Shown: piece by piece, positions 3,271 to 55,744 of the stretch | Layout: every line of letters begins with the position of its first letter | Numbering within the stretch: position 1 is the first letter of the stretch | Source: Bacteroidaceae bacterium | GTDB lineage: Bacteria; Bacteroidota; Bacteroidia; Bacteroidales; Bacteroidaceae | Length of the DNA: 64,000 nucleotides | Direction: 5' to 3' | Assembly (NCBI GenBank): GCA_017534535.1 | Contig: JAFXVZ010000019.1 | Location: 186,001-250,000, forward strand | The notes under the pieces: model-generated | Seen by the model: only the letters and a program-made list of their open reading frames with translations | Database searches by the model: none | Told to the model about the DNA's origin: nothing | Position numbers and translations under genes: made by a program

Positions 3271-3358
3271 GGTCGAAGCTGAAGGTCTTTCAGCTTCGAC
3301 CTCGTCTGCTTTCAGCTCCAACTTGACAAGTCTTCAGTTTCGACTTGCCAGTCCTTTC
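3271..3358. repeat. 22-bp-period degenerate tandem array, locus 1
   Basis: Four units begin at 3271, 3293, 3315 and 3337, exactly 22 bp apart, reading GGTCGAAGC, GCTTCGACC, GCTCCAACT and GTTTCGACT; the first three end in CTTTCA or TCTTCA. The first two form a perfect 13-bp stem (3271-3283/3289-3301) with a 5-nt loop. Confidence 0.7.
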
Positions 3359-3397
3359 TCTCCGAGCGGGTGCCAAAGTCTATTTGAGAATATTAAT

Positions 3398-3463
3398 CTT
3401 CTTCCGCTATGATAGCCATTGATACATATAAGCTATTTCGATTTTGCGGAAGAGCGGAAGAAG
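3398..3463. repeat. Perfect 11-bp inverted repeat
   Basis: CTTCTTCCGCT (3398-3408) and AGCGGAAGAAG (3453-3463) are exact reverse complements separated by 44 bp. Function unknown. Confidence 0.5.
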
Positions 3464-3544
3464 TCTTCTTGTTGGTTTTGATACACAAAGCCTTTTAGGC
3501 ATTAACTACTATATAATTCCTTAAAAGTTTATAAATTTTGGATA

Positions 3545-3580
3545 ATAAAAAAGGCTGTGCCTTTTTGAAGCACAGCCTTC
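3545..3580 (-). terminator. Intrinsic terminator after the DUF3836 gene
   Basis: A 10-bp stem AAGGCTGTGC/GCACAGCCTT (3551-3560/3570-3579) with a 9-nt loop. Read on the minus strand it is followed by a run of T residues, 33 bp after the stop of the gene at 3613. Confidence 0.85.
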
Positions 3581-3612
3581 ATGAATAAGGTTATTAAGGT
3601 ATGGAGTATTTT

Positions 3613-3987
3613 TTACATGGTCTCAGCGTCCATTGTGATGGTCATGCTTGGAACTAGCACGAATTCCTTCTTGTTCTTGTTCCACTTGTAGTAAGTAGTG
3701 GTAACCTGCTTGCCCTCATACTGGTAACGGATGCACATGTCATTCATCCACTCAGAGCCGTTCCACTTCTGGCAAACGTTCTCAGTCATGCGCTGCTGGT
3801 TGTCATACTTGTAGTTATACTGCAGGTAGTTTACCAACATGTTGTCAACGTTCTTGTAAACAGTCTGGCCAACCATAACGCCATTAACTTCCTCGTTGTT
3901 GTAAACCAAATTGTCGTGGTTGTCTGCCATTGCGTTGATACCACACATCATCAAAGCTGCTAATACGATAAATTTTAAAGTCTTCAT
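3613..3987 (-). CDS. DUF3836-like small secreted protein
   Basis: 124-residue protein with a clear signal peptide (MKTLKFIVLAALMMCGINAMA, probable cleavage after residue 21). The mature part is rich in Tyr, Asn and Lys, with the pattern NLVYNNEEVNG, VGQTVYK, YNYKYDNQQRM and a beta-rich C-terminal half ending VLVPSMTITMDAE. This matches my recollection of the DUF3836 family of Bacteroides and Prevotella, secreted proteins of unknown function often present in several copies. It stands alone with its own promoter and terminator. The short monocistronic layout suggests independent, possibly strong or conditional, expression. Confidence 0.75.
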   Translation of the reverse strand: MKTLKFIVLAALMMCGINAMADNHDNLVYNNEEVNGVMVGQTVYKNVDNMLVNYLQYNYKYDNQQRMTENVCQKWNGSEWMNDMCIRYQYEGKQVTTTYYKWNKNKKEFVLVPSMTITMDAETM

Positions 3988-4049
3988 TTTTTTATCTCCT
4001 ATTTTTTAATTATCTAACATATTGTCACTCCTCTTTCAGAATGACGACG

Positions 4050-4081
4050 CAAAGGTAAGGGCTTTTTCTGGACAAAACAAA
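4050..4081 (-). promoter_or_regulatory. Bacteroidetes-type promoter for the DUF3836 gene
   Basis: Minus strand TTTG (4081-4078), 20-bp spacer, TACCTTTG (4057-4050). Both boxes match consensus. The leader to the ATG at 3987 would be about 55-60 nt. Confidence 0.75.
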
Positions 4082-4182
4082 TATTTTCGCAATTATTTTT
4101 AGCAATGTGTAAAGCTAATGTTAACAGATATCATTTCAAAAGTGCTGTTTTGCTGACAAAATGTTATCCGATAAATCAAAAG

Positions 4183-4217
4183 AAGGGTATCTAACCATTC
4201 ACGGCGATACCCTTTTT
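4183..4217 (-). terminator. Probable terminator after polA
   Basis: AAGGGTAT (4183-4190) pairs with ATACCCTT (4207-4214). On the minus strand the stem is followed by TTCTTTTG. It lies 54 bp past the polA stop. Confidence 0.55.
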
Positions 4218-4270
4218 AACAGTTAACCTTTCTTTCTGATTGAAAGTTAAATAATGTTATTCAACATATT

Positions 4271-7129
4271 TTAGTGTGCTTCAAGCCAATTTTTACCCCA
4301 TCCACAGTCGGCTTTTAGGGGAACTCGCATCAAATATGCACGCTCCATTTCTTCTATTACAATCTTCTCAACCAACTCTTTTTCAGACGTTGGTACGCTG
4401 AAGTTGAGTTCGTCATGCACTTGCAGAATCATTTTAGCTTTTAGATTATAAGTTTTGAATCGTTGATAGATGTGAGCCATTGCCACTTTTATGATATCTG
4501 CTGCACTTCCTTGGATTGGTGCATTGATGGCATTTCGCTCTGCATAGCCTCTGACTGTGGCATTGCGGGAATTGATGTCAGGCAAATAGCGTTTGCGATG
4601 AAAGATGGTTTCTACATAGCCATTTTCCCTTGCAGATTCGATACTTTTGTCCATGTAGGCTTTTATTTGAGGATAGGTTTCGAAATAGCCATCAATTAAT
4701 TGGCGAGCCTCACTACGATCTACACCCATCCTTTCAGCCAAACCAAAGACAGAGATACCATAGATAATGCCAAAGTTAGCTGTTTTAGCCTTTCTACGCA
4801 TATCCTTACTAACTTCTTCCATGGATACCTTATATATTTTTGAGGCCGTAGCTGCATGCACATCGTAGTCGTGTTTGAATGCATCTATCATATTCGTATC
4901 TCCACTGAGGTGAGCCATGATGCGGAGCTCGATTTGAGAATAGTCTGCTGAAAAGAATTCACAACCGGGATCTGGAATGAAACACTTGCGAATCTCCTTG
5001 CCATCATCATCGCGAACAGGGATATTCTGGAGGTTTGGGTTACTACTACTCAATCGTCCTGTAGCAGTAACAGCTTGGTTGAAAGAGGTGTGTATCTTAC
5101 CTGTACGAGGATTTATCAATGCTGGCAAGGCATCAATGTAGGTACTTAACAACTTCTTCAGTCCTCGATAATCCAAAATTTTTCCCACAATCGGATGCTT
5201 GTGGCGTAAACTCTCCAACACTTCTTCCGAAGTAACATATTGCCCGGTCTTCGTTTTCTTTGGCTTCTCTATTAATTTCATATCTTTGAACAAGATATCA
5301 CCTACTTGTTTTGGTGAACTGATGTTGAACTTCATGCCTGCTAATTGATAGATTTCTTGTTCAATCTCATTCATACGTTGATTATAGAGAACGGATGTTT
5401 GTTTAAGAGCTTCCGTATCAAGAAGTACTCCATTGGTTTCGATATTCACTAACACAGGCACCAAAGGCATTTCAATATCATAGAACAATTGTTCTACTCC
5501 TTCTTTCTTTAGTTCCTCCTCCAAGATGGTTTTCAACTGAAGTGTCACATCTGCATCCTCGCATGCGTACCTATATATATCTATAGGAGCAAGGTCTCGC
5601 ATGTTTTTCTGATTTTTTCCCTTTGCACCTATGAGCTCATCGATGTGAATGGTTTTGTAGTGGAGATAGATTTCGGCCAGGTAGTCCATGTTATGACGCA
5701 ATTCTGGTTGCAGGACGTAGTGAGCCAGCATGGTGTCGAAGAGGGGACCTTTCACCTCGATACCATAATGATGGAGTATAATCATATCGTACTTGATATT
5801 TTGTCCAACCTTGACTGATGCCTCATTTTCGAACACGGGTTTGAAGGCTTGTACGATTCTACGTGCTTCATCATAATCGGCAGGTACAGGAATGTAGTAA
5901 GCTCTGTTTTTGGCATCGCTAAAGCTCATACCTACCAAATCGGCCATCATGGGTTCGGTACCTGTGGTTTCAGTATCTAAAGCAAAGATTTCTACAGACA
6001 AGAATTTTCTGATAATTTCCTGTCTTTTTTCTTCTGTATCAATCAGTTGATAGTCTATCTCATCTGGATTTAACGTCTTTAGATTCGATTTTTCTAAAAC
6101 AATTGGGGAGTTGGTCGGTATTTCTGCAAACAAATCGCCTTGAATCGGCATCTTTTTAGCTCCTACATCTGTTGGATGAGTTGGAGTGGGGGATGGGGTG
6201 GCGAATAAAGTTCCAGCGAACAAGTCTTGTGACACTTCCACCTTGGGAGTCCCCAATCTACCCATCACACGCTCAAAAAGCGAACGGAATTCTAGTTCAT
6301 CGAAAATTCGTTTGAGATTTGTCAAGTCAGGGGTTTCATATTTTAAAGCTTCCAAATCAAAGTTGATAGGTACATCCGTTTTAATGGTGGCAAGGAATTT
6401 CGAGAAGGCTATCTGTTCCTTGTTAGCCTCCACCTTCGCCTTGAGGGCACCTTTCAGTTGGTCGGTATTCTCTAACAGATTCTCAATGCTCCCAAATTCC
6501 TTGATTAGCTTTTGAGCTGTCTTTTCACCCACACCAGGGCATCCTGGTATGTTATCTGAAGCATCACCCATTAAACCCAGTAAGTCGATTACCTGTAGGG
6601 TAGAGGAGAGGTCATATTTTTCCATCACCTCTTTTGGTCCCATTATTTCAAAACCACCTGTGAACTTGGGACGATACATATAAACATGATCTTTCACCAG
6701 CTGCCCATAGTCCTTATCTGGAGTCAGCATATAGGTATCGATGCCTTGGGCTCCAGCTACTGTTGCAAGCGTCCCAATTACATCATCAGCTTCATAACCA
6801 GCTACCTCCAGAATAGGGATATTGTAAGCCTTGATTATTTCCTTAATAATTGGCACTGATTTTCGGATGTCCTCTGGAGTCTCTTCACGTTGAGCTTTAT
6901 AGTTAGGGTATGCCTCATGTCTGAATGTTGGACCTGGAGGATCAAAGGCGATGCCAATATGTGAAGGATTCTCTTTTTTCAACACTTCTTCTAGAGTATT
7001 GACAAAGCCCATGATGGCAGATGTGTTCTGCCCTTTGGAGTTAATTCGAGGGTTCTTAATGAGTGCATAATAGGCTCTATAGATGAGTGCATATGCGTCT
7101 AAAAGGAATAGTTTATCGCCAGTTTCCAT
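4271..7129 (-). CDS. polA: DNA polymerase I
   Basis: 952 residues from ATG at 7129; an extension to 7138 would need a TTG start. The enzyme fills gaps and removes RNA primers. Three domains are visible. Residues 1-300 form a 5'-3' exonuclease (DAYALIYRAYYA, EADDVIG, GLMGDASDNIPG). A proofreading domain carries ALDTETTG, with its catalytic Asp-Thr-Glu intact. The polymerase domain shows DYSQIELRIMAHLSGD (motif A), RRKAKTANFGIIYG (motif B) and QVHDEL (motif C). Length is normal. A Pro/Thr-rich linker around residue 310-340 (PSPTPTHPTD) joins the first two domains. Monocistronic, divergent from the polyprenyl synthase gene. Confidence 0.97.
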   Translation of the reverse strand: METGDKLFLLDAYALIYRAYYALIKNPRINSKGQNTSAIMGFVNTLEEVLKKENPSHIGIAFDPPGPTFRHEAYPNYKAQREETPEDIRKSVPIIKEIIKAYNIPILEVAGYEADDVIGTLATVAGAQGIDTYMLTPDKDYGQLVKDHVYMYRPKFTGGFEIMGPKEVMEKYDLSSTLQVIDLLGLMGDASDNIPGCPGVGEKTAQKLIKEFGSIENLLENTDQLKGALKAKVEANKEQIAFSKFLATIKTDVPINFDLEALKYETPDLTNLKRIFDELEFRSLFERVMGRLGTPKVEVSQDLFAGTLFATPSPTPTHPTDVGAKKMPIQGDLFAEIPTNSPIVLEKSNLKTLNPDEIDYQLIDTEEKRQEIIRKFLSVEIFALDTETTGTEPMMADLVGMSFSDAKNRAYYIPVPADYDEARRIVQAFKPVFENEASVKVGQNIKYDMIILHHYGIEVKGPLFDTMLAHYVLQPELRHNMDYLAEIYLHYKTIHIDELIGAKGKNQKNMRDLAPIDIYRYACEDADVTLQLKTILEEELKKEGVEQLFYDIEMPLVPVLVNIETNGVLLDTEALKQTSVLYNQRMNEIEQEIYQLAGMKFNISSPKQVGDILFKDMKLIEKPKKTKTGQYVTSEEVLESLRHKHPIVGKILDYRGLKKLLSTYIDALPALINPRTGKIHTSFNQAVTATGRLSSSNPNLQNIPVRDDDGKEIRKCFIPDPGCEFFSADYSQIELRIMAHLSGDTNMIDAFKHDYDVHAATASKIYKVSMEEVSKDMRRKAKTANFGIIYGISVFGLAERMGVDRSEARQLIDGYFETYPQIKAYMDKSIESARENGYVETIFHRKRYLPDINSRNATVRGYAERNAINAPIQGSAADIIKVAMAHIYQRFKTYNLKAKMILQVHDELNFSVPTSEKELVEKIVIEEMERAYLMRVPLKADCGWGKNWLEAH

Positions 7130-7192
7130 ACTTTTCAATAAATTTATGCGTAAATGTATAAAATAAAAACCACATTTCGGTAATTTATTACT

Positions 7193-7200
7193 ACTTTTGT
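7193..7200 (+). promoter_or_regulatory. -7 box for the polyprenyl synthase gene
   Basis: TACTTTTG matches TAnnTTTG and ends 16 bp before the ATG at 7217. No clear -33 TTTG is seen. The leader would be only about 10-12 nt. Confidence 0.55.
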
Positions 7201-7216
7201 AGGAAAATTCTTTGAT

Positions 7217-8194
7217 ATGAGTCGAGATTTGTCATTTATATCGAATCCAGTGAAGGCTGAGATGGAGGAATTCCAACGCCTTTACAAGGAATCTTTGTCA
7301 TCATCAAACGTGCTTTTGCAACAGGTAATCATGCATGTTACACAGAAGCATGGGAAGATGATGAGGCCTTTATTGCTGTTTTTGATTACTAAAATGTTTG
7401 ACAAAGTGACTCCAGCTGCCTACCATGCAGCTGTATCATTGGAATTGCTTCATACTGCTACCTTAATTCATGACGATGTGGTGGATGAGAGTGATAAGCG
7501 CAGGGGCCAACCTTCCGTCAATGCTGCTTTTAATAATAAGGTAGCAGTGCTTTCTGGCGACTTTTTCTTGGCAACAGCCTTACAACAAGTTTCTTTGACA
7601 CGCCATTTTGAAATTGTGGATATTGTTGCAAAGTTAGGTCAACTTTTAGCTGATGGTGAGTTGTTGCAGCTTTACAACATAGCCAATAACACGTTGTCTT
7701 ATGATGTTTATTTCGACATTATCCGCAAAAAAACAGCTATACTTTTTTCTTCTTGTGGTAGAGCTGGTGCAATTGCTGCTGGTGCTGATAAGGAATGGAT
7801 TGAGAAAGCAGCTGATTTTGGAGAGAAAATCGGTCTTTGTTTTCAAATCAAGGATGATATCTTCGACTATTTCGATAATCAAGCATTAGGTAAGCCTACA
7901 GGCAATGACATGAAAGAAGGTAAACTTACCCTTCCTGTACTCTATGCCTTAAACTCTGCGCAAAATGATTACTATTTAATGTTGGCTGAAAAAGTGAGAA
8001 GTTTTACTGCAACTGATGTAGAAATTGCCCAATTAATCGAATTTACTAAGCAATTGGGTGGCATCGAGTATTCTTATAAAATCATCGATGAAATCAAAGA
8101 AAAAGCATCTGCCTTGCTGACAGATGCTCCTGATTCTGATATCAAGGAATCCCTAATGGCTTATCTTGATTATGTAGTGGATAGAAACAATTAA
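7217..8194 (+). CDS. Polyprenyl (octaprenyl-type) diphosphate synthase
   Basis: 325-residue trans-isoprenyl diphosphate synthase that condenses isopentenyl diphosphate onto allylic diphosphates, probably making the menaquinone side chain. The first Asp-rich motif HDDVVDESDKRRGQPS begins near D86, and the second, IKDDIFDYFD, near D213. GKMMRP near residue 45 binds substrate. Product length cannot be read reliably from sequence. Its stop codon shares the palindrome TTAA with the stop of the convergent deoC (4-nt overlap). Confidence 0.9.
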   Translation: MSRDLSFISNPVKAEMEEFQRLYKESLSSSNVLLQQVIMHVTQKHGKMMRPLLLFLITKMFDKVTPAAYHAAVSLELLHTATLIHDDVVDESDKRRGQPSVNAAFNNKVAVLSGDFFLATALQQVSLTRHFEIVDIVAKLGQLLADGELLQLYNIANNTLSYDVYFDIIRKKTAILFSSCGRAGAIAAGADKEWIEKAADFGEKIGLCFQIKDDIFDYFDNQALGKPTGNDMKEGKLTLPVLYALNSAQNDYYLMLAEKVRSFTATDVEIAQLIEFTKQLGGIEYSYKIIDEIKEKASALLTDAPDSDIKESLMAYLDYVVDRNN

Positions 8195-19987: not shown

Positions 19988-20009
19988 GTTTGAATCATTG
20001 ATTGTACTT

Positions 20010-20097
20010 GCTTCAACCTGATGGTTCATTTGCTTCAAGTAATCGGGTCTTTTGCTTGAAGCAAATGATAAAAATCTTTCAGAGAATTTTGGTGGAT
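20010..20097. repeat. 22-bp-period degenerate tandem array, locus 2
   Basis: GCTTCAACC (20010), GCTTCAAGTAATCGGGTC (20032), GCTTGAAGC (20054) and CTTTCAGAG (20076) start exactly 22 bp apart. Units two and three form a perfect 13-bp inverted repeat (20027-20039/20055-20067). It lies between two convergent genes. Confidence 0.75.
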
Positions 20098-26006: not shown

Positions 26007-26026
26007 ACTCAAAGCTATCGTCAGCA

Positions 26027-26635
26027 CTATAACTTTTTCTTACGAATTACGAAATATTTAAGATAACGCTTTAATATCATTGGTTAATGCCTTCGTAAGA
26101 TATTCGTATGTTCGTAAGAAAAAGTACCGAAAGGGGAATAAATCAAGTTAATCCAACATAAAAACACAATACTAATCCAATCACTTCATCGTGCTGAGGC
26201 GGCATAAGTTACGGTGCTGATTATCAGCAGTAATTGAGTCCGCACCAGTCCTGCGGTATCGGACTGCCAGTCAGACACCAAAAGACTGCCAGTCAGACGC
26301 TGAAGGACTGTTGGTCAGACACCAACTGACTATTGGTCTTATAGCATCAGACCAGTAGGCTTATGCCATAGGACTGATTGTCAATTGCTTTGTGACTGAC
26401 AGGCAGTTGCCGTCTGACTAACTTAGCTGGCAGTATAGAGCCTTATTGGTAATTTGTATTTGAGTGGCGTTAATCCTTATTGTTTAAAATTGCAGCCTAT
26501 CATAGGTGCTATCATGCACATTTTTGAGGCTTTCCGCTTCATTTTCTTACGAACTTACGAACATCTTACGAAGAGAAAGAGTATTATCTTCATTTCCTAT
26601 TAAGAATATTCGTAAGATCGTAAGAAACTTTATAG
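26027..26635. repeat. Nested imperfect inverted repeats rich in TTACGAA
   Basis: The outer arms, 26027-26062 and 26600-26635, both read CTATAA...TTTCTTACGA...TTACGAA toward the centre. The inner arms are 26091-26124 and 26541-26573, each containing TTCTTACGAAC and ATCTTACGAAG in the same reading. Together they enclose about 600 bp. There is no transposase and no clear target-site duplication. Confidence 0.7.
26262..26437. repeat. 22-bp-period degenerate tandem array, locus 3 (eight units)
   Basis: Units begin GACTG or GAC(T/C)A at 26262, 26284, 26306, 26328, 26350, 26372, 26394 and 26416, every 22 bp without slip. Units 1 and 2 share GACTGCCAGTCAGAC; GACTGCCAGTC is a perfect 11-nt dyad. Later units decay progressively. 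Confidence 0.85.
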
Positions 26636-26672
26636 TTAGTTAAGCATTGCATGGTGAAAGGTTGAGAAAGAA

Positions 26673-27368
26673 TTAAATACCCATCAATTCCTTGGCATAA
26701 GCTACAGCCTCCTCATTCGTATTGAATATTTTCAGGATGTTATATGATATGTTGCTGCGAAGTTCACGATTATAGTTTATGTACATGTAGTCATAGCTAC
26801 TATTCCAAAGATTTCCGCCAAGAGGCTCAACCAGCTTTATTACCAACTGAGTGTACATTCCTGAACCCCAATTCATTGCAAGGTGGCAGATATTATTTGC
26901 TTTTTCTGCTGGAATAATTTGCTTTTCTGTTATTATCCTTCCGTCTGCTTCATCATAAGTATAAGGTGAATGGACAAATAATTCTATTTTATTCTTCGTT
27001 GAATACCTCATCCATCTTTCGTAAGTCTCAAAGTCGAATTGTGCGCTACAATACAATTCATTATTATCAAACCAGAATGAAGTTGGATAATAGTTTATCC
27101 ACTTGTTTGACTTGTCACTGCTTATCTGTACAGGCTCAAATCTTAAACTTGCTTTGTTTTTAGGCTCGTCGTTTGATAATACATAGGAGTAATGCTCAAA
27201 GAATTTGTCTTCCACAAAATTTTTGAATTCTTTTTCTGACATGTAATTGATAGAATTATTATAATCTGACCATGCAGGTGAATTTAATAATCCTCCTTCT
27301 TTTTCTTCCTTACTGCAAGCACTCAGGCACAATACCATCAAAAAACTCATCAATACTGTTTTCTTCAT
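26673..27368 (-). CDS. Putative lipoprotein, tandem paralogue 1
   Basis: 231 residues from ATG at 27368, where MKKTVLMSFLMVLCLSAC gives a lipoprotein signal with Cys at residue 18; upstream in-frame ATGs lie in the repeated leader. I do not recognise a named family. The mature part is acidic and aromatic, with NYMSEKEFKNFVED, SNDEP, SFWFDNNELYC and a C-terminus TNEEAVAYAKELMGI. It is paralogous to the next gene upstream (about 40 percent identity by eye in the middle, near identity at both ends). No TM segment other than the signal. Probably anchored in the outer or inner membrane. Confidence 0.75.
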   Translation of the reverse strand: MKKTVLMSFLMVLCLSACSKEEKEGGLLNSPAWSDYNNSINYMSEKEFKNFVEDKFFEHYSYVLSNDEPKNKASLRFEPVQISSDKSNKWINYYPTSFWFDNNELYCSAQFDFETYERWMRYSTKNKIELFVHSPYTYDEADGRIITEKQIIPAEKANNICHLAMNWGSGMYTQLVIKLVEPLGGNLWNSSYDYMYINYNRELRSNISYNILKIFNTNEEAVAYAKELMGI

Positions 27369-27465
27369 AGTTCTTTTTCTTTTTAAGTTATACATTAGTT
27401 TCCGCATCTCTTGCCTATAAATGCCGAAATGCGGAAACATTGCATGGTGAAAGGTTGAGAAAGTA

Positions 27466-28161
27466 TTAAATGCCCATCAATTCCTTGGCATAAGCTACAG
27501 CCTCCTCATTCGTGTCAAATACTTTGAGTTCTGTATCGAAAGGATAATTTCGAGAAACACGCTCATAAAACATATAAATACGATAATATTTTGCTTCATT
27601 GTTAATATCGCTGAACAAAGGCTCGTTAAGCTTAATATCTAATCCCAATAATTCGTTGGATCCATATTTGCTTAACCCCATCTGATATGATATGCCCCAT
27701 TTCTCCGCTGGGAGGATTTCGTTGACTGTAGTCAGAATTCCATTCTCTGGGTTATATTTATAGCCTGAGCGGACAAATACTTCTACCTCATGAGTTTCGG
27801 AAAATTCATGCCATTGCTGATAAGTGGTAAAATCCATTTGAGGAGTGCAATACATCAAATCATCATCGAACCAGAATGATATAGGACAGTATTTCAACCA
27901 TTCACCTTTCAAATCGTCCTCATAGATTGTTGGAGGTGGTGATAACCTCGTGTAAGCCACAGGTTCATCATTTGACAAGCCATAGGATTGAAACCTGAAT
28001 ATATTGTTTCTAACATATCCTATGAAATCTGATTCTTGTATGTAATTCATATAATTCAAAGGATGGTATCCACCATTCAGAACGATTTCGGCATCGTCGC
28101 TGTCACTACAAGAGGAAAGGCACAATGTCATCAAAACACTCATCAATACTGTTTTCTTCAT
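27466..28161 (-). CDS. Putative lipoprotein, tandem paralogue 2
   Basis: 231 residues, the same length as its neighbour. Signal MKKTVLMSVLMTLCLSSC, lipid Cys at residue 18. Conserved with paralogue 1 are SNDEP, SFWFDDDLMYC, ILPAEK, IKLNEPL and the C-terminus FDTNEEAVAYAKELMGI. Function unknown. It sits on the second 793-bp repeat unit. Confidence 0.75.
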   Translation of the reverse strand: MKKTVLMSVLMTLCLSSCSDSDDAEIVLNGGYHPLNYMNYIQESDFIGYVRNNIFRFQSYGLSNDEPVAYTRLSPPPTIYEDDLKGEWLKYCPISFWFDDDLMYCTPQMDFTTYQQWHEFSETHEVEVFVRSGYKYNPENGILTTVNEILPAEKWGISYQMGLSKYGSNELLGLDIKLNEPLFSDINNEAKYYRIYMFYERVSRNYPFDTELKVFDTNEEAVAYAKELMGI

Positions 28162-28258
28162 AGTTCTTTTTCTTTTTAAGTTAAACATTAGTTCCCGCAT
28201 CACTGCCTATTAAATGCCGAAATGCGGAAACATTGCATGGTGAAAGGTTGAGAAAGTA

Positions 28259-28444
28259 TTAGATACCCATCAATTCCTTGGCATAAGCTACAGCCTCCTC
28301 ATTGGTATCAAATACTTTGAGCTCTGTATCAGCAAACATCAGCTCTTCTGCCAGCTGCAATTCTGGCAAGAGCGATGAAGCATCGGTTTGCCTGTCAATG
28401 CAGGAAATACAGAATAGCATTAAGTAGAGCAAAAGATTATTCAT
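28259..28444 (-). pseudogene. Chimeric remnant: short lipoprotein start fused to the shared lipoprotein C-terminus
   Basis: A 61-codon frame begins MNNLLLYLMLFCISC, unlike the two full-length paralogues, and ends DTNEEAVAYAKELMGI, identical to paralogue 2. It is therefore most simply a deletion product of a third repeat copy, with a different 5' end brought in. It starts 5 bp after the DedA-like gene and could still be translated from that operon as a tiny lipoprotein. Whether it is functional is unknown. Confidence 0.6.
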
Positions 28445-28449
28445 CTTTT

Positions 28450-33326: not shown

Positions 33327-34940
33327 TCATTTTCCTTTCTCCTTCAATTCACGTTTCTTCCTTTCTGGATAAGATTCGTTATGAGGCTTTCCATTACCTT
33401 TCTTGTCAAATGGTTTTTTGGCACCATCTTTGCGGAAAGGTTTGTCGCCATCCTTACGGAATGGTTTCTTGGCATCATCTTTACGATTTCCGTCTTTACG
33501 GAAAGGTTTCTTATCACCCTCCTTGTGGAACGATTTGCGATCTCCTTCTTTTCTAAAAGGCTTCTTATTGCCATCCTTGCGGAACTGTTTTGAGTGTTCT
33601 GCCTTCAGCTCAGGATGCAATTTCTCCTCTTCGAGGCGTTTACGCTTGGCTTCTGCTTTTTCATAACGTTCCAGCTCAGCTAAACGATGCTCTTCTGGTG
33701 TGAGCCACTTGCTATGGTTGACACGCTTCTTGGGCTTCTCATTTGGATTATCTTCTTTGTTCTTATCCAACTCTTCACCAGCCTCGCGGAAGTGGACATA
33801 CTTACCCTCAAAAATTTCATATTCACGGAAAGAGCATTCCAAATCTCCATTCAATACGTCAATCTTACGGGTGGGTTTCAAACCAATCTGGTCGAAACAC
33901 TCGTCACGATAACTTAGTATCCAAGCTTGTCCACCTACAAAAGCGTGCTTGAGTCTTTCGCCAATGGTGGAATACAACCCCAGTATATTGTCTGATGAGA
34001 TTCTCTCGCCATAAGGAGGATTGGTAATCATTAGTGATTTCTCAGTGGGTTGCACAAAATCCTTGATATCCCTCATCTCGATGTCGATAATACGAGTCAT
34101 TCCTGCTCGTTTAATGTTACCACGAGCCGTAGCTACCATCTTAGGATTGTTGTCGTAGGCATAAATATGATGCTCAAATTCACGTTCCTGAGATTCGTCA
34201 TTATAGATGGACTCCATCAGTTCTGCATCGAAATCAGGCCAACGTTCGAAAGCGTAACCCTGTGTTCTGAAGATACCAGGAGCCATATTCTTTGCAATCA
34301 GAGCTGCTTCTATAGGAATAGTGCCAGAGCCACACATAGGGTCAATCAAATCAGTCTCGCCTTGCCAACCTGTCATCATAATCAAGCCAGCAGCTAATAC
34401 TTCATTCAGAGGTGCTTCGCCTGTTTCAGAACGATATCCGCGTCTATGAAGTGACTCACCGGAAGAATCGAGTGAAAGGGTACACTGATTATCATTAATG
34501 TGAATATTAAGCATGATGTCAGGGTTCTTTACACTGACGCTAGGGCGTTTACCCTCTTTGTCACGGAAATAGTCGGCTATGGCATCCTTTACCTTATAGC
34601 TGACATACATAGAGTGGCGAAACTCCTCACTATGTATGGTAGCATCAACGGCAAAGGTTTGGTCAACAGACAAGTAATTTTCCCATGCCAGGCTTTTTAC
34701 AGCCTCATAAACCTCGTCAGCATTTTTAGCTTCAAATTGTTTGATTGGTTTAAGGATGCGCAAGGCAGTATGAAGAGAAAAGTTGGTGAGATACATCATG
34801 CGCTTATCGCCAGTAAAACTCACCATGCGCTTGCCTATCTCTACGTTTTCCGCTCCCAAAGTAGTCAGTTCCTTTGCCAGCACCTCTTCCAGTCCCTGGA
34901 AAGTCTTGGCAATCAATGTAAAGTTCTCGTTATATTGCAT
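33327..34940 (-). CDS. RlmL-like rRNA (guanine-N2)-methyltransferase with repetitive basic tail
   Basis: 537 residues. Residues 5-160 form a THUMP region. A UPF0020/RlmL methyltransferase domain follows, with DPMCGSGTIPIEAALIA (SAM site) and TNPPYGER (catalytic NPPY). From about residue 451 the protein becomes a highly basic tail made of 8-10-residue repeats of the form KKPFRKDGD, ending RELKEKGK. The enzyme probably methylates G2445-type positions of 23S rRNA; it lacks the RlmK second domain of the E. coli fusion. It overlaps cysE by 11 nt. Confidence 0.88.
   Translation of the reverse strand: MQYNENFTLIAKTFQGLEEVLAKELTTLGAENVEIGKRMVSFTGDKRMMYLTNFSLHTALRILKPIKQFEAKNADEVYEAVKSLAWENYLSVDQTFAVDATIHSEEFRHSMYVSYKVKDAIADYFRDKEGKRPSVSVKNPDIMLNIHINDNQCTLSLDSSGESLHRRGYRSETGEAPLNEVLAAGLIMMTGWQGETDLIDPMCGSGTIPIEAALIAKNMAPGIFRTQGYAFERWPDFDAELMESIYNDESQEREFEHHIYAYDNNPKMVATARGNIKRAGMTRIIDIEMRDIKDFVQPTEKSLMITNPPYGERISSDNILGLYSTIGERLKHAFVGGQAWILSYRDECFDQIGLKPTRKIDVLNGDLECSFREYEIFEGKYVHFREAGEELDKNKEDNPNEKPKKRVNHSKWLTPEEHRLAELERYEKAEAKRKRLEEEKLHPELKAEHSKQFRKDGNKKPFRKEGDRKSFHKEGDKKPFRKDGNRKDDAKKPFRKDGDKPFRKDGAKKPFDKKGNGKPHNESYPERKKRELKEKGK
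33390..33590. repeat. Coding tandem repeats of the RlmL-like basic tail
   Basis: About seven in-frame copies of a 24-30-bp unit encode K(K)PFRK(D/E)G-type blocks. The units vary in spacing (8-10 codons), so the array probably expands and contracts without breaking the frame. Confidence 0.7.
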
Positions 34941-40663: not shown

Positions 40664-40818
40664 ACTTCAAGCTGATGCACTGTTATGATAAGGCTAATGC
40701 GTGGATAGGTTAAAGCCCCCTTAAAAATTCTCTAGAGAATTTCATTGCTTGCTTGAAGTAAACGGGTCGCTTACTTGGGCTAAATGCAAAAATTCTCGAG
40801 AGAATTTTAGAGCCTATC
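40664..40818. repeat. 22-bp-period degenerate tandem array, locus 4
   Basis: GCTGATGC at 40671 and GCTAATGC at 40693, then GCTTGAAGTAAACGGGTC at 40751 and ACTTGGGCTAAATG at 40773, are each 22 bp apart. About six to seven units fit. The part 40750-40808 aligns over nearly its whole length with 20031-20090 at locus 2. Confidence 0.72.
40725..40742. repeat. Perfect 18-bp palindrome
   Basis: AAATTCTCTAGAGAATTT reads the same on both strands. A second, near-perfect copy (AAAATTCTC-GA-GAGAATTTT) is at 40789-40808 and a weaker one at 20071-20090. Confidence 0.8.
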
Positions 40819-49626: not shown

Positions 49627-49634
49627 CAAAAGTA
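49627..49634 (-). promoter_or_regulatory. -7 box for the YfhO-GH36 operon
   Basis: TACTTTTG on the minus strand, 25 bp before the ATG at 49601. Confidence 0.5.
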
Positions 49635-49755
49635 ATAAAACTTTGGGGAATAATCACCTACTAAGCCGAACAATTAACGAAAATATAGCAGCTGTCCTAA
49701 TAATTCCACTCTTTGTTAGAGGAGGTCCCTTTTAGGGTGAGGGATTGTGTTGAGC

Positions 49756-50868
49756 CTACTCTATCAAATGGTAAACACCACCTACGAGTGCCTTCACCAC
49801 TCCCTTCATTTCTAAAGAAAAGAGGATGGGGGTGAGCCTGTAAATAGCCATATCGGCCTCCACCGTCAGGTTATTAATGTGCAGATCGCCTCTTGCTTTC
49901 AGTATTTTGACAATCAACGTCTCTTCTGGCGTCAAATCTACAAACAGATTGCGTTGAATGGCCTCAGGCTTAACACCTTTTTGTTGCCAACCCATAGCAT
50001 TGACCAAATCTTCGGCATTGGTAATCAAGGCGGCTTTGTTGTCTCTAATCAAGTTGTTGCAACCTTTCGACATCTCATCATTGATTCTCCCAGGCAAAGT
50101 GAAACATTCTCTATTGTAGGTATTTGCCAATGAAGCAGTTATCATTGAGCCTCCTTTCAGAGGTGATTCCACCACAAGAGTACAGTCAGCCATTCCTGCT
50201 ACGATGCGGTTTCTTGCCACAAAGTTAAACGGATCGGGATTTGTTTTGGGCAAGTATTCAGTTAACAAACCTCCATTGGACAACATATTAATGGCTGTCT
50301 GTCGGTGTGCAGGAGGATAGATTCTATCCAATCCGTGTGCCAATACACCCACGGTAGGGAGACCATTGGAGAGAGCTGCACGATGTGAATGGATATCGAT
50401 GCCGTATGCCAGTCCGCTGACAATCATTACATCTGGACATAGCACTTCTAAGTCCCTCACAAAATCGGCACAGAACTTTTTGCCATATTCCGTAGCCTTA
50501 CGTGTACCCACCATTGACACCACATGCAGACTATTTAGATTAGCCTGCCCTTTGAAATACAATACGATAGGGGCATCCTCACACTCTCTGAGACGGGAAG
50601 GATAGGATTCGTCTTTGATGGTAAGGCACTGGATGCCTTTTTTCTCGCAGAAATCCAATTCTTGCTCTGCCCGCTTGAAAGCTTCAGGGCAATTCAGCAA
50701 ATCTATTAACCGTTGATTCACTTCAGGAAGCAACTCAGGTAAGTGTAGCCGGTTCTCAAACACGGCAGTAGCACTGCCTATCTCATCTATCAAACGCTTG
50801 GCGTTGATATGACCGATACCTTCACATAGCGTCAAGGCAATGGAAGAAACTCTTTCATCGTTGTTCAT
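49756..50868 (-). CDS. dprA: DNA-processing protein DprA
   Basis: 370 residues. DprA loads RecA on incoming single-stranded DNA in natural transformation. N-terminal helix-hairpin-helix region (LCEGIGHINAKRLI), Rossmann-like core with VSMVGTRKATEYGK, VSGLAYGIDIHSHRAAL, GLDRIYPPAH and RNRIVAGM, and a C-terminal winged helix (ILKARGDLHINNLTVEADM). Complete. It follows the thioesterase gene by 39 bp, same strand. Confidence 0.95.
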   Translation of the reverse strand: MNNDERVSSIALTLCEGIGHINAKRLIDEIGSATAVFENRLHLPELLPEVNQRLIDLLNCPEAFKRAEQELDFCEKKGIQCLTIKDESYPSRLRECEDAPIVLYFKGQANLNSLHVVSMVGTRKATEYGKKFCADFVRDLEVLCPDVMIVSGLAYGIDIHSHRAALSNGLPTVGVLAHGLDRIYPPAHRQTAINMLSNGGLLTEYLPKTNPDPFNFVARNRIVAGMADCTLVVESPLKGGSMITASLANTYNRECFTLPGRINDEMSKGCNNLIRDNKAALITNAEDLVNAMGWQQKGVKPEAIQRNLFVDLTPEETLIVKILKARGDLHINNLTVEADMAIYRLTPILFSLEMKGVVKALVGGVYHLIE

Positions 50869-50907
50869 CGTTATGAGTTTTAGTTTATAAGTTATTTAGT
50901 TTTTAAT

Positions 50908-51309
50908 TTATAAATATTCAGCAAACAATTTGTCAAACATCTCCCCTCGCGTCAAGACTCCATTCTCCACACAGACGGCATCGACCACACCCCTCAGACT
51001 CAATTTGTTGTCACTTTTACGGAAGATGTCTTGGTAGAAAACAAATCGAATGCCCTCCCGCTTCAGATAGAGCTTGCTAACAAACTCATCATTACTTCGC
51101 AAAGGCGTCTTAAACGACATAGTGATTTTTGATACTACCACATCGATGCCTTGTTCATGCAACTCGGCAAAGCTGATACCGGTAGTGAGCAAAAACTCAT
51201 GACGAGTATGCTCCAGGTAATGCTGGTAATTGGCATTGTTCACAATACCCTGTAGGTCGCACTCATAGTCGCGTACCTTCATCTCCAGTTCATAAATGTA
51301 TTGGCTCAT
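50908..51309 (-). CDS. Hotdog-fold acyl-CoA thioesterase (4HBT/YbgC type)
   Basis: 133 residues. MKVRDYECDLQGIVNNANYQHYLEHTRHEF (seen in pieces) is the hallmark N-terminal motif, with the catalytic Asp in the DLQGIVNNANY segment. Single hotdog domain. The acyl substrate is unknown. ATG overlaps the stop of the U32 gene as ATGA, so the two are coupled. Confidence 0.87.
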   Translation of the reverse strand: MSQYIYELEMKVRDYECDLQGIVNNANYQHYLEHTRHEFLLTTGISFAELHEQGIDVVVSKITMSFKTPLRSNDEFVSKLYLKREGIRFVFYQDIFRKSDNKLSLRGVVDAVCVENGVLTRGEMFDKLFAEYL

Positions 51310-52580
51310 GGTTCTAGTCCTTTAAATTGCATCATCTCATGGGTGCTTACCAACTTAAACAGTTTATCGGATGGACGAATCTTCTCCACTTTCAGTGAGA
51401 AATGTTCACCTTTATGCACCGTTTGTACAGGCTTCAGGTTCACACGTGTTTCTTCCAAGGTTAAGAATATAGCTCCTGTAGTAGGACCCGTTATCAACAC
51501 CTTATCACCTACATTCAGTTCTGCTGCTTCACACAGGAACTCAGCCACACCTATGTTATTGAAGTATTTGATACCTTTGCCCACATAAATCTTACGTTCC
51601 GTAGCAGCAGAGCCGTAGGTATGTGTCCATTCACCCAGACGCTGACCTAGATAATAGCCATTCCAAAAGCCACGATTGAACACCGTACTGAGGCGTTTGT
51701 CCCAATCAAGAATCTTCTCGGCAGAGAAAGTGCCGTCAATCACACTTTCGATGGCCTTGCGATAACACTCCGCCACAATGCGCACATATTCTGGTCCTCT
51801 CGCCCTGCCCTCTATCTTGAATACCCGAACACCTGCATCCATCATCTTATTGATGAAATGAATGGTCTTTAGGTCTTTGGGTGACATAATGTACTTATTG
51901 TCTATCTGTAGTTCATCGCCAGTGTCCTTGTCGGTTACAATGTAACCTCTACGACAAATCTGGCGACATTCCCCTCTGTTTGCAGACTTATTCTCCTCCT
52001 GCAATGACAGGTAGCACTTGCCCGATACTGCCATGCATAAGGCACCATGACAGAACATCTCGATGCGTACTTGTTCACCACTGGGGCCGCAAATGTTCTC
52101 CTCCACGATATGCCGATGAATCTCTGCCACCTGATCCAAGTTCAACTCCCTAGCCAGTACCACCACATCGGCAAATTGGGCATAGAACTTCAACGCCTCC
52201 ACGTTACTGATGTTAAGTTGCGTACTCAGATGTACTTCTTGACCTATACTTCGTGCATAGGTCAATACTGATATATCCATTGCTATGATGGCACTGATAC
52301 CAGCTTCCTTGGCTGCATTTACGATGGCATGCATTTGCTCCATGTCATTATCATAAATGATGGTATTTACCGTCAAGTAACTTTTGATGCCATGTTCATT
52401 ACATATGGACGCTATCTCACGCAGGTCGTCAATGGTGAAGGGGTTGGCAGAGTGCGAGCGCATATTCAGCTGTCCTACTCCGAAATACACCGAGTTGGCA
52501 CCTGCCTGAATGGCAGCTTGGAGGGAGTCCCTTGACCCCACAGGTGCCATGATTTCAAAGTCGTTGATGTTATATTGCAT
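51306..52580 (-). CDS. U32 peptidase-family protein (TrhP/RlhA-like RNA hydroxylation)
   Basis: 424 residues. MAPVGSRDSLQAAIQAGANSVYFG is the usual U32 start. The signature EMFCHGALCMAVSGKCYLS carries the Cys residues thought to hold a metal or iron-sulfur centre, with more Cys in RGECRQICRRGY. Family members of this length include TrhP (tRNA U34 hydroxylation, with prephenate) and RlhA (23S rRNA). Which applies here cannot be told. Next to dus and dprA. Confidence 0.87.
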   Translation of the reverse strand: MQYNINDFEIMAPVGSRDSLQAAIQAGANSVYFGVGQLNMRSHSANPFTIDDLREIASICNEHGIKSYLTVNTIIYDNDMEQMHAIVNAAKEAGISAIIAMDISVLTYARSIGQEVHLSTQLNISNVEALKFYAQFADVVVLARELNLDQVAEIHRHIVEENICGPSGEQVRIEMFCHGALCMAVSGKCYLSLQEENKSANRGECRQICRRGYIVTDKDTGDELQIDNKYIMSPKDLKTIHFINKMMDAGVRVFKIEGRARGPEYVRIVAECYRKAIESVIDGTFSAEKILDWDKRLSTVFNRGFWNGYYLGQRLGEWTHTYGSAATERKIYVGKGIKYFNNIGVAEFLCEAAELNVGDKVLITGPTTGAIFLTLEETRVNLKPVQTVHKGEHFSLKVEKIRPSDKLFKLVSTHEMMQFKGLEP

Positions 52581-52622
52581 ATCTTTAAGACATTTGAGTG
52601 TGCGAAGTTAGTGGTTTTTTCT

Positions 52623-52630
52623 TATCTTTG
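52623..52630 (+). promoter_or_regulatory. -7 box for the dihydrouridine synthase gene
   Basis: TATCTTTG, 52 bp before the ATG at 52683. The nearest TTTG upstream is at 26 bp, beyond the usual spacing. Confidence 0.5.
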
Positions 52631-52682
52631 CAAAGAATTGGCTGAATAGATGACTTTACTAGCCTCGATTTAATGAAAAGAC

Positions 52683-53669
52683 ATGAAGATTGCTAACCTT
52701 GATTTTGGAGAATGCCCCATATTCCTGGCTCCGATGGAGGATGTCACTGATCCTGCTTTTCGCTTGATGTGCAAGCGTTTTGGTGCAGATATGGTCTATA
52801 CCGAGTTTATATCGAGCGATGCCTTGGTACGTTCGGTCAACAGCACGATGCGTAAGTTGAACATCAGCGAAGAGGAACGTCCTGTGGCCATCCAGATTTA
52901 TGGCAAAAACACTGATGCCATGATAGAGGCAGCTCGCATGGTGGAAGAAGCTAAGCCCGATATCATCGACCTGAACTTCGGATGTCCTGTCAAGAAAGTG
53001 GCTGGCAAGGGAGCAGGGGCAGGTCTATTGCGTGACATTCCCAAGATGTTGGAGATTACCCGTGCCGTGGTGGATACAGTCAAGCTTCCCGTCACCGTAA
53101 AGACGCGTTTGGGATGGGATGAAAATAGCAAGATTATCGTGGATTTGGCAGAGCAGTTGCAGGATTGTGGCATCAGTGCCTTGACCATTCATGGCAGAAC
53201 TAGGGCACAAATGTACACGGGCGAAGCCGACTGGACACTGATTGGCAAGGTTAAAAAGAACCCTCGCATGCATATCCCCATCATTGGCAATGGTGACATC
53301 ACCACTCCCGAGCGTGCCAAAGAGTGTTTTGACAAGTATGGAGTGGATGCCGTGATGATTGGCCGAGCCTCCTTTGGTCGCCCTTGGATTTTCAAGGAAG
53401 TGAAGCATTACTTGCAAACAGGTGAGCCTTTACCACCTCTAAGTGCCGAGTGGCGATTGAATGTCTTGCGTCAAGAAGTACTGGATAGCGTCAATCTCTT
53501 GGATGAGCGTCGTGGCATCCTTCATGTACGTCGTCACATAGCTGCCAGTCCTCTTTTTAAGGGCATCCCCAATTTCCGTGAAACCCGCATTGCGATGCTT
53601 CGTGCAGAAACAAAAAAAGATTTGTTTGATATATTTGATAAGCTTGACTTAAGCAGCTTTCCTGAATAG
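52683..53669 (+). CDS. tRNA-dihydrouridine synthase (DusB-like)
   Basis: 328-residue FMN enzyme reducing uridine to dihydrouridine in tRNA. LAPMEDVTDPAFR, the active-site Cys in LNFGCPVKKVAGKGAGA, TVKTRLGW, LTIHGRTRAQMY and IGRASFGRPWIF match the DusB group. Length normal. The final 21 bp overlap, tail to tail, the end of the PAP2 gene. Confidence 0.94.
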   Translation: MKIANLDFGECPIFLAPMEDVTDPAFRLMCKRFGADMVYTEFISSDALVRSVNSTMRKLNISEEERPVAIQIYGKNTDAMIEAARMVEEAKPDIIDLNFGCPVKKVAGKGAGAGLLRDIPKMLEITRAVVDTVKLPVTVKTRLGWDENSKIIVDLAEQLQDCGISALTIHGRTRAQMYTGEADWTLIGKVKKNPRMHIPIIGNGDITTPERAKECFDKYGVDAVMIGRASFGRPWIFKEVKHYLQTGEPLPPLSAEWRLNVLRQEVLDSVNLLDERRGILHVRRHIAASPLFKGIPNFRETRIAMLRAETKKDLFDIFDKLDLSSFPE

Positions 53670-54596
53670 CCAACTTGTAAACACATACAGCAAGTATCCA
53701 GAAATCCACCCTGCAAAGATATCAATCAAATAATGCGCTTGAATATAGACAGTAGAGATACATAATAAGATATAGAACGGCAACATCCACAACGTCAACT
53801 TCTTACTACTTCTCCATCCCATCAACATGATAATTGTTGAGATGCCCACATGCGAGCTGGGGAATGCTGCTGTTGGCCTCTCACCTGCTTCATGTGACAG
53901 TTCCAACAAATGGTAGAAGAACCCTTGCCCCTGCTCTGTATAAGGCATCAACTCAGGATGAAGATTGAAATAATCGCCTACAGCAGGGAAGATGCCAGCC
54001 AGTACATTCTCCTCGCCAATGGCAGGGAAATAGAACTGAGGGCCAGCAACAGGCAACACCATATATATAATATAGTAGATGAAGAATGAAGCCGTTAGCA
54101 CAAAGCCTATCTTCTCAAACAGGTCGAAATGCTTCACGAAATACCAGCATGTAATCACTGCAATAAGGGGGAAATAAGCCACATATCCCATATTCAGCGG
54201 TTCACTAATCCACATTTGCGGATAACAGCGATGGAACCAATAGGCTGGTTGGGCATTGAAAATAGCCTGCTCTGCATCGGCAAAAAGATGGTCGAGGTTA
54301 GGTAACAGACGGTTGAACTCAAAGGTGTCAGGATACCAGTAGCTCAACAGCGCTAATTGGAAACCCACACGCAGAAAAGCCGTCACCTTGCAGGGGTACT
54401 TGTGATACACCACCACCAAAGCCAAAGTCACCACCACAATCGCCAGTCTCTCCAACAGCATTAGCATCGGATGGTCCATTTGCCCATAGAGTACCACGAT
54501 AGCGATGGAGGTAAGTAGGGTATAAGCCATTGCCACCTTCTCAATCAGGAACTCTCCTTTGCTGGGTCCTATTCTTTGTAACCAATCTAAAGCCAT
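53649..54596 (-). CDS. PAP2-superfamily membrane phosphatase/phosphotransferase
   Basis: 315 residues, six to eight TM helices. C-terminal PAP2 motifs are clear: AAFPSSHVG (motif 2) and AHYLIDIFAG (motif 3); the KxxxxxxRP motif 1 is not obvious. This pattern fits the PAP2_3 (inositolphosphoceramide synthase-like) subgroup. Bacteroidales make inositol and sphingolipids, so a lipid head-group reaction is plausible but unproved. It overlaps the upstream epimerase gene by 10 nt. Confidence 0.83.
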   Translation of the reverse strand: MALDWLQRIGPSKGEFLIEKVAMAYTLLTSIAIVVLYGQMDHPMLMLLERLAIVVVTLALVVVYHKYPCKVTAFLRVGFQLALLSYWYPDTFEFNRLLPNLDHLFADAEQAIFNAQPAYWFHRCYPQMWISEPLNMGYVAYFPLIAVITCWYFVKHFDLFEKIGFVLTASFFIYYIIYMVLPVAGPQFYFPAIGEENVLAGIFPAVGDYFNLHPELMPYTEQGQGFFYHLLELSHEAGERPTAAFPSSHVGISTIIMLMGWRSSKKLTLWMLPFYILLCISTVYIQAHYLIDIFAGWISGYLLYVFTSWLFRKAA

Positions 54597-55594
54597 CCCT
54601 CCTCCTTATACCATGCAATGGTCTCTTTCACACCCTTGTCCAACTGATACTGAGGCTGATAACCCAATTCATCGATGGCAGGAGTAATGTCACAACGCCA
54701 ATTGCGTTGCTTCATGATACGGTATTTGTCTGTATTTAACGTACTGGTGGTATGGCGTAGCTTAGCCCACCATTCCGCCATGATGGAAATCACCTTCAAC
54801 ACCCAAAGAGGTGCACAGATGCGTAGCACCTTTGTCGCCTTCAGTTCGCGCATGATGAGGTTCGAGAACGTACGACTCTGATATACTTGTCCGTCGCTCA
54901 AAAAGAAAGCCCGTTGTTTCACCCCTCTTTCGATGCCTAAAAAGATAGCTTGCACAATGTCTTTCACATACACAAAGGTAATGTCCTGACGTTTGTAGCC
55001 CACTGAAAAATCAACGTGTTGCTGAATGCTCTTAGCCATCAGGAAATAATCCTTCTCTCTCGGGCCATACACACCTGTGGGGCGAAGGATGAGGTAGGGG
55101 AAATCAGCAAGACTTTGCAGGTATTGCTCCATTTTCAGTTTACTTTTGCCGTATGCCGTATTCGGTTGAGGCTTATCGTGCTCCGTAATGGGCTGGTAAT
55201 CCTTTTCGTGAATAGGACCGAATACGCTCAGCGTACTGATAAATACAAATAGTTTAGGTGTCTGTCCTGTGGCAATCAGTGCATCCACCAAGTTCCGTGT
55301 CTGTTTGTAATTAACCTTTTCAAAATCATGCTTATCGACACATTTCGTTACACCTGCACAATGCACAATATAGCTAAAAGCGCCATGCTGTGAAGCATGT
55401 TCCTTCAGCTGTTTCTTTAACATGTCTGGGTGAGTATAGTCTAGGTCAATAAACTGAATATCAGGACTCTGTAAATAAGTCTTGCTACTGCTTTTGCGCA
55501 CGCCAGCCCACGTAAAGAATCCTTTCCGCAAAGCTTCCTCCACGATAAAGCTTCCTATAAACCCACTTGCACCTGTTACCAGTATACTTTCCAT
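54587..55594 (-). CDS. NAD-dependent epimerase/dehydratase (extended SDR)
   Basis: 335 residues. Rossmann GASGFIGSFIVEEA at the start and the YGKSK catalytic Tyr-Lys pair (near residue 148) show an extended SDR. HCAGVTK and RPTGVYGPREKDYF are typical of sugar-nucleotide or lipid-linked substrates. It overlaps the PAP2 gene and probably shares its pathway. Confidence 0.88.
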   Translation of the reverse strand: MESILVTGASGFIGSFIVEEALRKGFFTWAGVRKSSSKTYLQSPDIQFIDLDYTHPDMLKKQLKEHASQHGAFSYIVHCAGVTKCVDKHDFEKVNYKQTRNLVDALIATGQTPKLFVFISTLSVFGPIHEKDYQPITEHDKPQPNTAYGKSKLKMEQYLQSLADFPYLILRPTGVYGPREKDYFLMAKSIQQHVDFSVGYKRQDITFVYVKDIVQAIFLGIERGVKQRAFFLSDGQVYQSRTFSNLIMRELKATKVLRICAPLWVLKVISIMAEWWAKLRHTTSTLNTDKYRIMKQRNWRCDITPAIDELGYQPQYQLDKGVKETIAWYKEEGWL

Positions 55595-55612
55595 ACCATA
55601 CTATTTTGGGTA

Positions 55613-55620
55613 CAAAGATA
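55613..55620 (-). promoter_or_regulatory. -7 box for the epimerase-PAP2 operon
   Basis: TATCTTTG on the minus strand, 18 bp before the ATG at 55594. Confidence 0.55.
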
Positions 55621-55678
55621 CTAAATTATTCCTTTCAACACCATCATTCTGTTCCTGTTTTTGCAGTCAGTTTTAATT

Positions 55679-55744
55679 ACTTGAAGTAATTGCCCCGATT
55701 ACTTCAAGTAATCGAGCCATTAGCTTCAAGTAATCCAGCTCCTG
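55679..55744. repeat. 22-bp-period degenerate tandem array, locus 5
   Basis: ACTTGAAGTAAT (55679), ACTTCAAGTAATCG (55701) and GCTTCAAGTAATCC (55723) start 22 bp apart. Around the second, CGATTACTT-C-AAGTAATCG (55696-55714) is a perfect 19-nt dyad. It shares the core CTTCAAGTAATCG with locus 2. Confidence 0.78.

Follow-up and report, generated by a model that had tools for sequence, protein, structure and literature searches.

Intergenic arrays of one 22-bp period and many sequences in Bacteroidaceae genomes, and their link to one group of VapE-like helicase genes

Why do several intergenic gaps of one Bacteroidaceae contig hold tandem arrays that share a 22-bp period and differ in sequence? 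We addressed this question in a stretch of 64,000 nucleotides (G000:C31:186001-250000; "the window" means this whole stretch) from a 2.7-Mb draft genome that is 89% complete. The initial annotation had placed five such arrays in five of the largest gene-free gaps. When the window was scanned at lags 15-40 (88-base comparison window, at least 44 matches), lag 22 gave four clusters, all of them intergenic, which establishes that the arrays are real; lags 24, 25, 27, and 30 gave one cluster each, every one inside genes. The arrays are as follows.

3287-3356, no strand: family E array of TTTCAGCTTCGACC-like units; lag-22 segment score 17.4
20006-20064, no strand: family A array, TTGCTTCAAGTAATCGGGTC; score 17.2, dyad p 0.04; convergent genes on either side
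26245-26422, no strand: family B array, GACTGNCNGTCAGACACCAANN, about 8 units; score 55.2, dyad p 0.002
40664-40812, no strand: degenerate composite array of family A units with the end unit AATTCTCNNGAGAATT
55676-55739, no strand: family A array, ATTACTTCAAGTAATCGAGCC, about 3 units; score 25.8, dyad p 0.002

Four of the five are clear. The fifth, at 40664-40812, is weak: it falls under the array score threshold used, and its lag-22 identity of 0.39 is the highest among lags 15-45 within limits chosen by the analyst. Its end unit sits at 40726-40741 and 40791-40806, and its unit types and the AATTCTCNNGAGAATT palindrome are common to dispersed copies. The association with the largest gaps did not survive, as the array at 20006-20064 occupies a gap of 170 bp, and gaps such as 3988-4270, 28204-28449, and 60730-61059 have no lag-22 peak. 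At 3287-3356, the dyad of the array's own units is not significant (p 0.11), and 3270-3302 is covered by an inverted repeat (stem 14 bp, loop 5 bases), the stem being present in the fold. The Pfam-named genes adjoining the window arrays are ordinary (YchF GTPase, DUF3836, DUF389, DEAD-box helicase, epimerase, C69 peptidase), and three of the 10 scanned window proteins gave no Pfam match.

A wider sample of 88 stretches (1.67 Mb) from the same genome and same-genus relatives held 45 intergenic segments at lag 22, while other lags, with heptad multiples and lag 44 excluded, averaged 2.0 and reached at most 10. The comparison with neighboring lags that the initial annotation had named comes out clearly for 22, with counts of 4, 10, 45, 10, and 1 at lags 20, 21, 22, 23, and 24. 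Most lag-44 segments (21/27) coincide with a lag-22 array. Called ORFs held 13 lag-22 versus 31 lag-21 segments; by eye, several of the former resemble arrays beneath spurious ORFs. Outside the window, intergenic lag-22 segments counted at a score of at least 13 numbered 15 in 300 kb of G020, 7 in 260 kb of G003, 9 in 120 kb of G012, 4 in 120 kb of G017, 2 in 80 kb of G011, 1 in 120 kb of G016, and 1 in 100 kb of G019, the last with six more inside called ORFs. In 120 kb pooled from G023, G015, and G004, lag 22 gave three intergenic segments and lag 23 gave four.

Other taxa were sampled through stretches around 80 relatives of the GH97 gene of the window genome, a gene whose nearest named relatives are rumen MAGs. 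Lag 22 came first both in Bacteroides/Phocaeicola (15 clusters including one run of N, with 10 at lag 44 and at most 5 at any other lag) and in Parabacteroides (8 clusters, other lags at most 4). Small samples of Dysgonomonas (80 kb), Alistipes/Rikenellaceae (66 kb), Cytophagales (105 kb), and other families of the order (about 246 kb) gave none at lag 22, and neither did 200 kb of E. coli K-12.

The proposal that one period goes with differing sequences was also borne out. The 76 arrays fall into 57 sequence families, with units similar within one array and dissimilar between arrays. Parabacteroides goldsteinii and P. faecis carry unrelated four-unit arrays in the same gap, between flanks that are 97% and 94% identical, and downstream of the GH97 gene the window genome, L050, L048, and L091 bear four different arrays. 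Across the GH97 loci, a lag-22 segment (score at least 12) was found in 11 of 30 and none in the other 19; orthologous arrays are common to two pairs of relatives, and their changes, by eye, lie mostly outside the half-sites described below. Within the window genome, arrays recur. Those at 20006-20064 and 55676-55739 form one BLAST family with five sampled arrays from elsewhere in the genome, the family B array occupies seven places, itself counted, and the array at 55676-55739 has 34 genome matches at E<=0.01, a figure that includes itself and same-place matches on both strands and reduces to about 22 distinct places. Local amplification, one of the mechanisms offered at the outset, is partly supported: two 90%-identical family B copies differ by exactly one 22-bp unit, but whole arrays with their flanks are also scattered as copies. 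The same one-unit difference, together with the likeness of units inside an array, is what would be expected of functionless minisatellites made neutrally by hairpin-assisted replication slippage. We nevertheless consider this improbable, since slippage alone leaves unaccounted for the single period in unrelated sequences, as well as the conservation of half-sites and the link to one helicase group that are described next.

What unrelated arrays share is a geometry. Half-sites of about 6 bp occur once per 11 bp and are alternately inverted, so that each 22-bp unit consists of a half-site, a gap, an inverted half-site, and a second gap, with dyad centers every 11 bp. A unit dyad was present at p<0.05 in 40 of the 76 arrays and was significant in 19 of 27 arrays of a separate helicase-linked set, in keeping with the suggestion that the arrays belong to a system reading spacing and dyad shape. 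Around dyad centers that lie on a base, complementarity peaks 5-6 bp out (up to 0.80) and is low at the center (0.41); centers between bases give a weaker pattern. Successive units agree better in the half-sites than in near-center bases in 30 of the 40 dyad arrays, and the mean difference of 0.116 lies above 100 of 100 column-permuted controls; likewise, no control in 100 reached the excess seen in the helicase-linked set. Arrays are short (median 3.6 units, maximum 10). In family A, a small common set of half-sites reappears, by eye, in either arm at many of 20 places, and a base preference over all arrays is weak and possibly driven by this family. Mirror symmetry of whole arrays was considered and dropped: 14 of 57 initially fell below 0.05 against a null skewed by the flanks, and on core units the count was 2 of 25.

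Dyads of this kind could equally be hairpins in RNA, acting in mRNA 3' protection, in termination, or as a repeat RNA. Single strands do fold better than shuffles in all eight chosen stretches (z -3.1 to -7.6), but any palindrome yields stable folds on both strands. Paired half-sites showed no covariation (1282 pairs observed versus 1304.7 expected; z -2.2, 46 arrays), which argues against an RNA hairpin, as does an RNAalifold covariation term of +0.39. G-T mispairs outnumber A-C mispairs in convergent (57/39), co-directional (52/42), and divergent (22/15) gaps, but the excess is significant in none of these classes; for co-directional gaps, the only ones in which the strand is defined, the ratio went from 43/28 in a first set to 52/42 in the larger one (p 0.35). 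The window also holds no Rfam match at gathering score and no tRNA. The RNA structure that had been offered among the possible explanations is accordingly disfavored, and we regard it as very improbable.

The array at 26245-26422 lies inside a larger repeated unit, which has the following parts.

26035-26634, no strand: dispersed element of about 600 bp with TTACGAA-type inverted end modules, from a three-copy alignment
26035-26125, + strand: left end module, CTTACGAA...TTCGTAAG; relative at C47:2592-2674 (E 2e-8)
26545-26634, - strand: right end module, from the three-copy alignment

Elsewhere in the same genome, a complete copy lies at about C31:78.4-78.95 kb and another, more distant, near C21:40 kb; copies L001 and L002 are 90% identical over 601 bp, and L001 and L005 are 70% identical over 294 bp in addition to the end modules. 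The window copy and its two relatives are MITE-like in being short, gene-less, present in several copies, and bounded by inverted ends. No target-site duplication was found, and 26020-26650 had no match in phage and plasmid DNA at E 1e-5. On contig C47, the left-module relative is accompanied by a weak match to the right module at 5575-5659 (E 0.0015, with a 28-bp core at 93%). Between them lie a gene for a 697-aa helicase, a family B array related to that of the window, and a DUF6078 gene, the array being placed between the DUF6078 and VapE genes. The 697-aa protein carries BT4734-like_N (E 1e-30), VapE-like (5e-29), and DUF3874 domains; its PHROG matches are DNA helicase or primase, and the only solved chain that it matched is the VapE homologue 7pds_A (E 0.001). 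The window copy has the end modules and the array without the VapE or DUF6078 gene. End modules surround a helicase locus in the C47 element only, one of them weakly. Because relatives of the modules flank a VapE gene there, we examined PF08800 loci in 31 genomes.

A PF08800 match was found in 27 of these 31 genomes of the genus, and array-bearing genes in at least 12 of them. We assembled 46 genes, of which 30 came from the top-scoring PF08800 loci and 16 from 20 hand-chosen stretches of four genomes, four of those stretches repeating genes already cut. Lag 22 occurred in 23 of the 46 upstream regions and lag 44 in 17, with at most 2 for any other lag from 15 to 45. An array lay upstream of 23 of the 40 VapE genes that had 100 bp or more of upstream sequence versus 27 of 333 control ORFs, whose upstream regions were shorter (293 vs 413 bp), giving an odds ratio of 15.3 and p=9e-13; the genes were picked by Pfam score and genome, 16 of them after the pattern had been seen, and close orthologues are included, so that p values overstate independence and 23/40 is not a genus-wide rate. 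The association is concentrated in one similarity group of BT4734-like_N/VapE/DUF3874 helicases, delimited by identity and here called the clade. When only genes with 100 bp or more of upstream sequence are considered, an array precedes 23 of the 24 that belong to the clade and none of the 16 VapE genes that do not, by our own count. Array-carrying helicases are 0.35-0.95 identical to the nearest other carrier; the 19 non-carriers that fall outside the group do not exceed 29% identity with any of them. Inside the group there are four non-carriers, with upstream gaps of 20, 21, 71, and 317 bp; the clade gene L314 lacks an array. Three VapE genes from outside the clade have upstream periods of 21, 24, and 28 bp, none with a dyad. 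This link to one helicase group had not been foreseen in the initial annotation.

Array sequence tends to follow helicase kinship. Pairs with similar arrays (20/253) have a median protein identity of 0.73 versus 0.52 for the others (p 1e-8, again with close orthologues included). There are similar proteins with unmatched arrays, such as L312/L318 (85% identical) and L298/L301 (81%), and some matching arrays accompany proteins only 54-56% identical. Six additional records had arrays upstream in four (two B. finegoldii loci, P. distasonis, and a faecal contig) and not in the other two. In named records, the PF08800 proteins carry the BT4734/BF3469 family annotation, and the helicase genes adjoin genes such as proC and priA. 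As proC or priA lies near the gene in two of four plasmid records, plasmid carriage is not claimed; nor was the label Bacteriophage on unannotated faecal contigs accepted as proving a phage origin, and viral contigs yielded no clade protein in a scan sensitive to close relatives only. Long matches to clade proteins in 117 genomes from the order's other families reached 28% identity at most, but a Parabacteroides distasonis record matches at 49% identity, so the 117-genome sample does not confine the group to one family.

Ten proteins encoded beside these helicase genes were scanned and comprised four HU-HIG proteins, two DUF6078 proteins, an esterase, two ATPases, and a Bro-N protein. At four scanned loci, the HU-HIG gene faces the helicase gene, and in three of them the array lies between the two, which echoes the mention of HU-family proteins in the initial annotation. 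This arrangement, and the position of linked arrays 36-600 bp upstream of the start codon, would suit operators through which the divergent helicase and HU-HIG genes regulate themselves, with stray arrays as decoys or relics and no mobility involved. However, strays are many and show no preference for divergent (promoter) gaps (11 vs 16.2 expected, p 0.16; convergent 23 vs 16.3, p 0.065; both trends), and the scattering of arrays together with their flanks also speaks against operators, an explanation that we judge unlikely. A strong gene-orientation bias suggested by a first set (20 convergent vs 10-12 expected) faded with more data. HU-HIG genes facing some linked arrays could also indicate binding platforms for a nucleoid protein that shapes chromosome domains, and all 13 genomes searched contain 2-41 PF18291 matches each, counts that take in ordinary HU proteins since the profile also matches 9 of 14 control genomes, including E. 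coli. Nevertheless, sites differ in array sequence and one gap holds unrelated arrays in two close species, and we give a nucleoid role little credence.

Strays far outnumber linked arrays in our sample. None of the 45 sampled arrays has a clade gene scoring >300 bits at a distance of 3 kb or less; a lower bar would add two, L197 (292 bits) and L022 (255 bits). A distant VapE-like gene has the mixed L022 array, with its family A units, on its 3' side. Four of 36 stray segments match a linked array of their own genome, with no match to reversed targets, and 32 are unmatched among the linked arrays examined, which are a subset of all. A stray array of P. distasonis matches one linked to a helicase gene in a different strain of that species (E 4e-13, against 0.1 when reversed). 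For family A, no clade parent was found at five of the seven PF08800 places of its own draft genome, and tblastn with six clade proteins (E 1e-20) detected no clade helicase in the window. The best reading of the window arrays is as gene-less copies of the arrays of a helicase element.

Since arrays of fixed pitch stand upstream of a helicase gene, they are most simply read as iteron-like initiation sites, and we consider it probable, with some reserve, that they serve a helicase-encoding mobile element as iteron-like recognition arrays, of which those in the window are gene-less copies. Each array would offer one half-site per helical turn (11 bp), alternately inverted and thus forming dyads every 22 bp; the helicase of each element, or a partner (for example HU-HIG), would bind its own array, and binding would start replication or transfer of the element. 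Array-only copies could then spread and outlive the parent, the array at 26245-26422 being a presumptive gene-less copy inside a MITE-like shell. A protein of fixed geometry with a drifting half-site preference may be what produces one period and many sequences. We infer every step from array through binding and replication to dispersal, and binding and mobility are to be read as putative; the strays suggest docking sites scattered by a poorly known mobile element. Iterons of plasmid origins are direct repeats of about 22 bp beside an initiator gene, and the linked arrays resemble them in repeat length and in adjoining a helicase gene. Unlike iterons, the arrays are dispersed through chromosomes, mostly without an adjoining initiator gene, and the comparison is one of likeness, the iteron role being putative. 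PMC5862659 predicts that ATPases with a VirE domain, when fused to primases, serve as helicases in the replication of mobile elements. In these terms, the arrays give PF08800 helicases a concrete candidate DNA site, explain part of the intergenic repeat content of a dominant gut genus, and offer a natural example of spacing and symmetry being kept while sequence changes.

Two known systems are close enough to need comparison. REPs, BIMEs, and REPtrons, as described in PMC2817692 and PMC3733652, are likewise extragenic palindromes of alternating orientation, present in many copies around a rarer gene of their own and with more than one family per genome. However, REPs are associated with RAYT (Y1) transposases and bear GTAG/CGTC tags, whereas the present arrays go with a VapE helicase group and consist of contiguous 22-bp units. 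PF01797 (Y1_Tnp) had no match in the window genome (89% complete) and matched 5 of 14 control genomes, and a RAYT/REP assignment was rejected. More tentatively, and at somewhat less than even odds in our estimation, there may be a new class of mobile element in Bacteroidaceae and Tannerellaceae, in which a VapE-type helicase (with HU-HIG or DUF6078) replicates or mobilizes DNA through a dyad array of 22-bp pitch. Array sequence would diverge with the helicase while geometry stays frozen, and array-only copies would be seeded as REPs are by RAYTs, but by a replicative helicase. Among the matches listed in a title and abstract search of CC-licensed PMC literature, none concerned arrays linked to VapE or 22-bp arrays whose sequences are unrelated.

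BrickBuilt, the minisatellite-MITE of Porphyromonas gingivalis, is portrayed in PMC4596501 as short tandem units that are intergenic and dispersed, in the same order of bacteria, with some copies inside a terminal-inverted-repeat shell. It is one named element of 23-nt units with IS5-like ends, whereas the arrays here have a 22-bp period, many unrelated unit sequences in one geometry, and a link to a helicase group. The element at 26035-26634, the sole shell found, has TTACGAA-type ends and not BrickBuilt-type (GAGACCTTTGCA-like) ends. The same source mentions that tandem repeats of 41, 23, and 22 nt had already been reported from strain W83, and a minority of 23-bp arrays exists in our 1.67-Mb sample as well, as the 10 intergenic segments at lag 23.

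The design of the 22-bp arrays is also used at a different pitch, namely 23 bp or 21 bp, in the following arrays from sampled stretches (L numbers) outside the window:

L205 16027-16217, 23-bp array with significant dyads
L118 608-783, 23-bp array with significant dyads
L191 12841-12942, 23-bp array with significant dyads
L043 15790-15875, 21-bp array with significant dyads

Tandem arrays with periods of 21 and 24 bp were also located 5' of VapE genes that do not belong to the array group (L304 815-941 and L305 855-951), and no significant dyads were found in these arrays. At lag 21, a degenerate, TTGACAA-like heptamer was detected that forms arrays at three loci:

L164 15467-15561, intergenic heptamer array
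L022 15750-15817, intergenic heptamer array
L019 14247-14288, intergenic heptamer array

In the gap where P. goldsteinii and P. faecis carry 22-bp arrays, Parabacteroides gordonii has a longer insert in which ACTATCAC motifs are repeated (L098 5275-5662).

Within the window, a 94-bp stretch is duplicated at 91% identity (26642-26735 and 27435-27528), and two similar ORFs adjoin the copies (26673-27440 and 27466-28203); a Pfam scan of the former returned no match. An ORF for which the Pfam scan identified RlmL-like methyltransferase domains (33327-34940) contains 24-bp and 54-bp tandem repeats (33412-33585).
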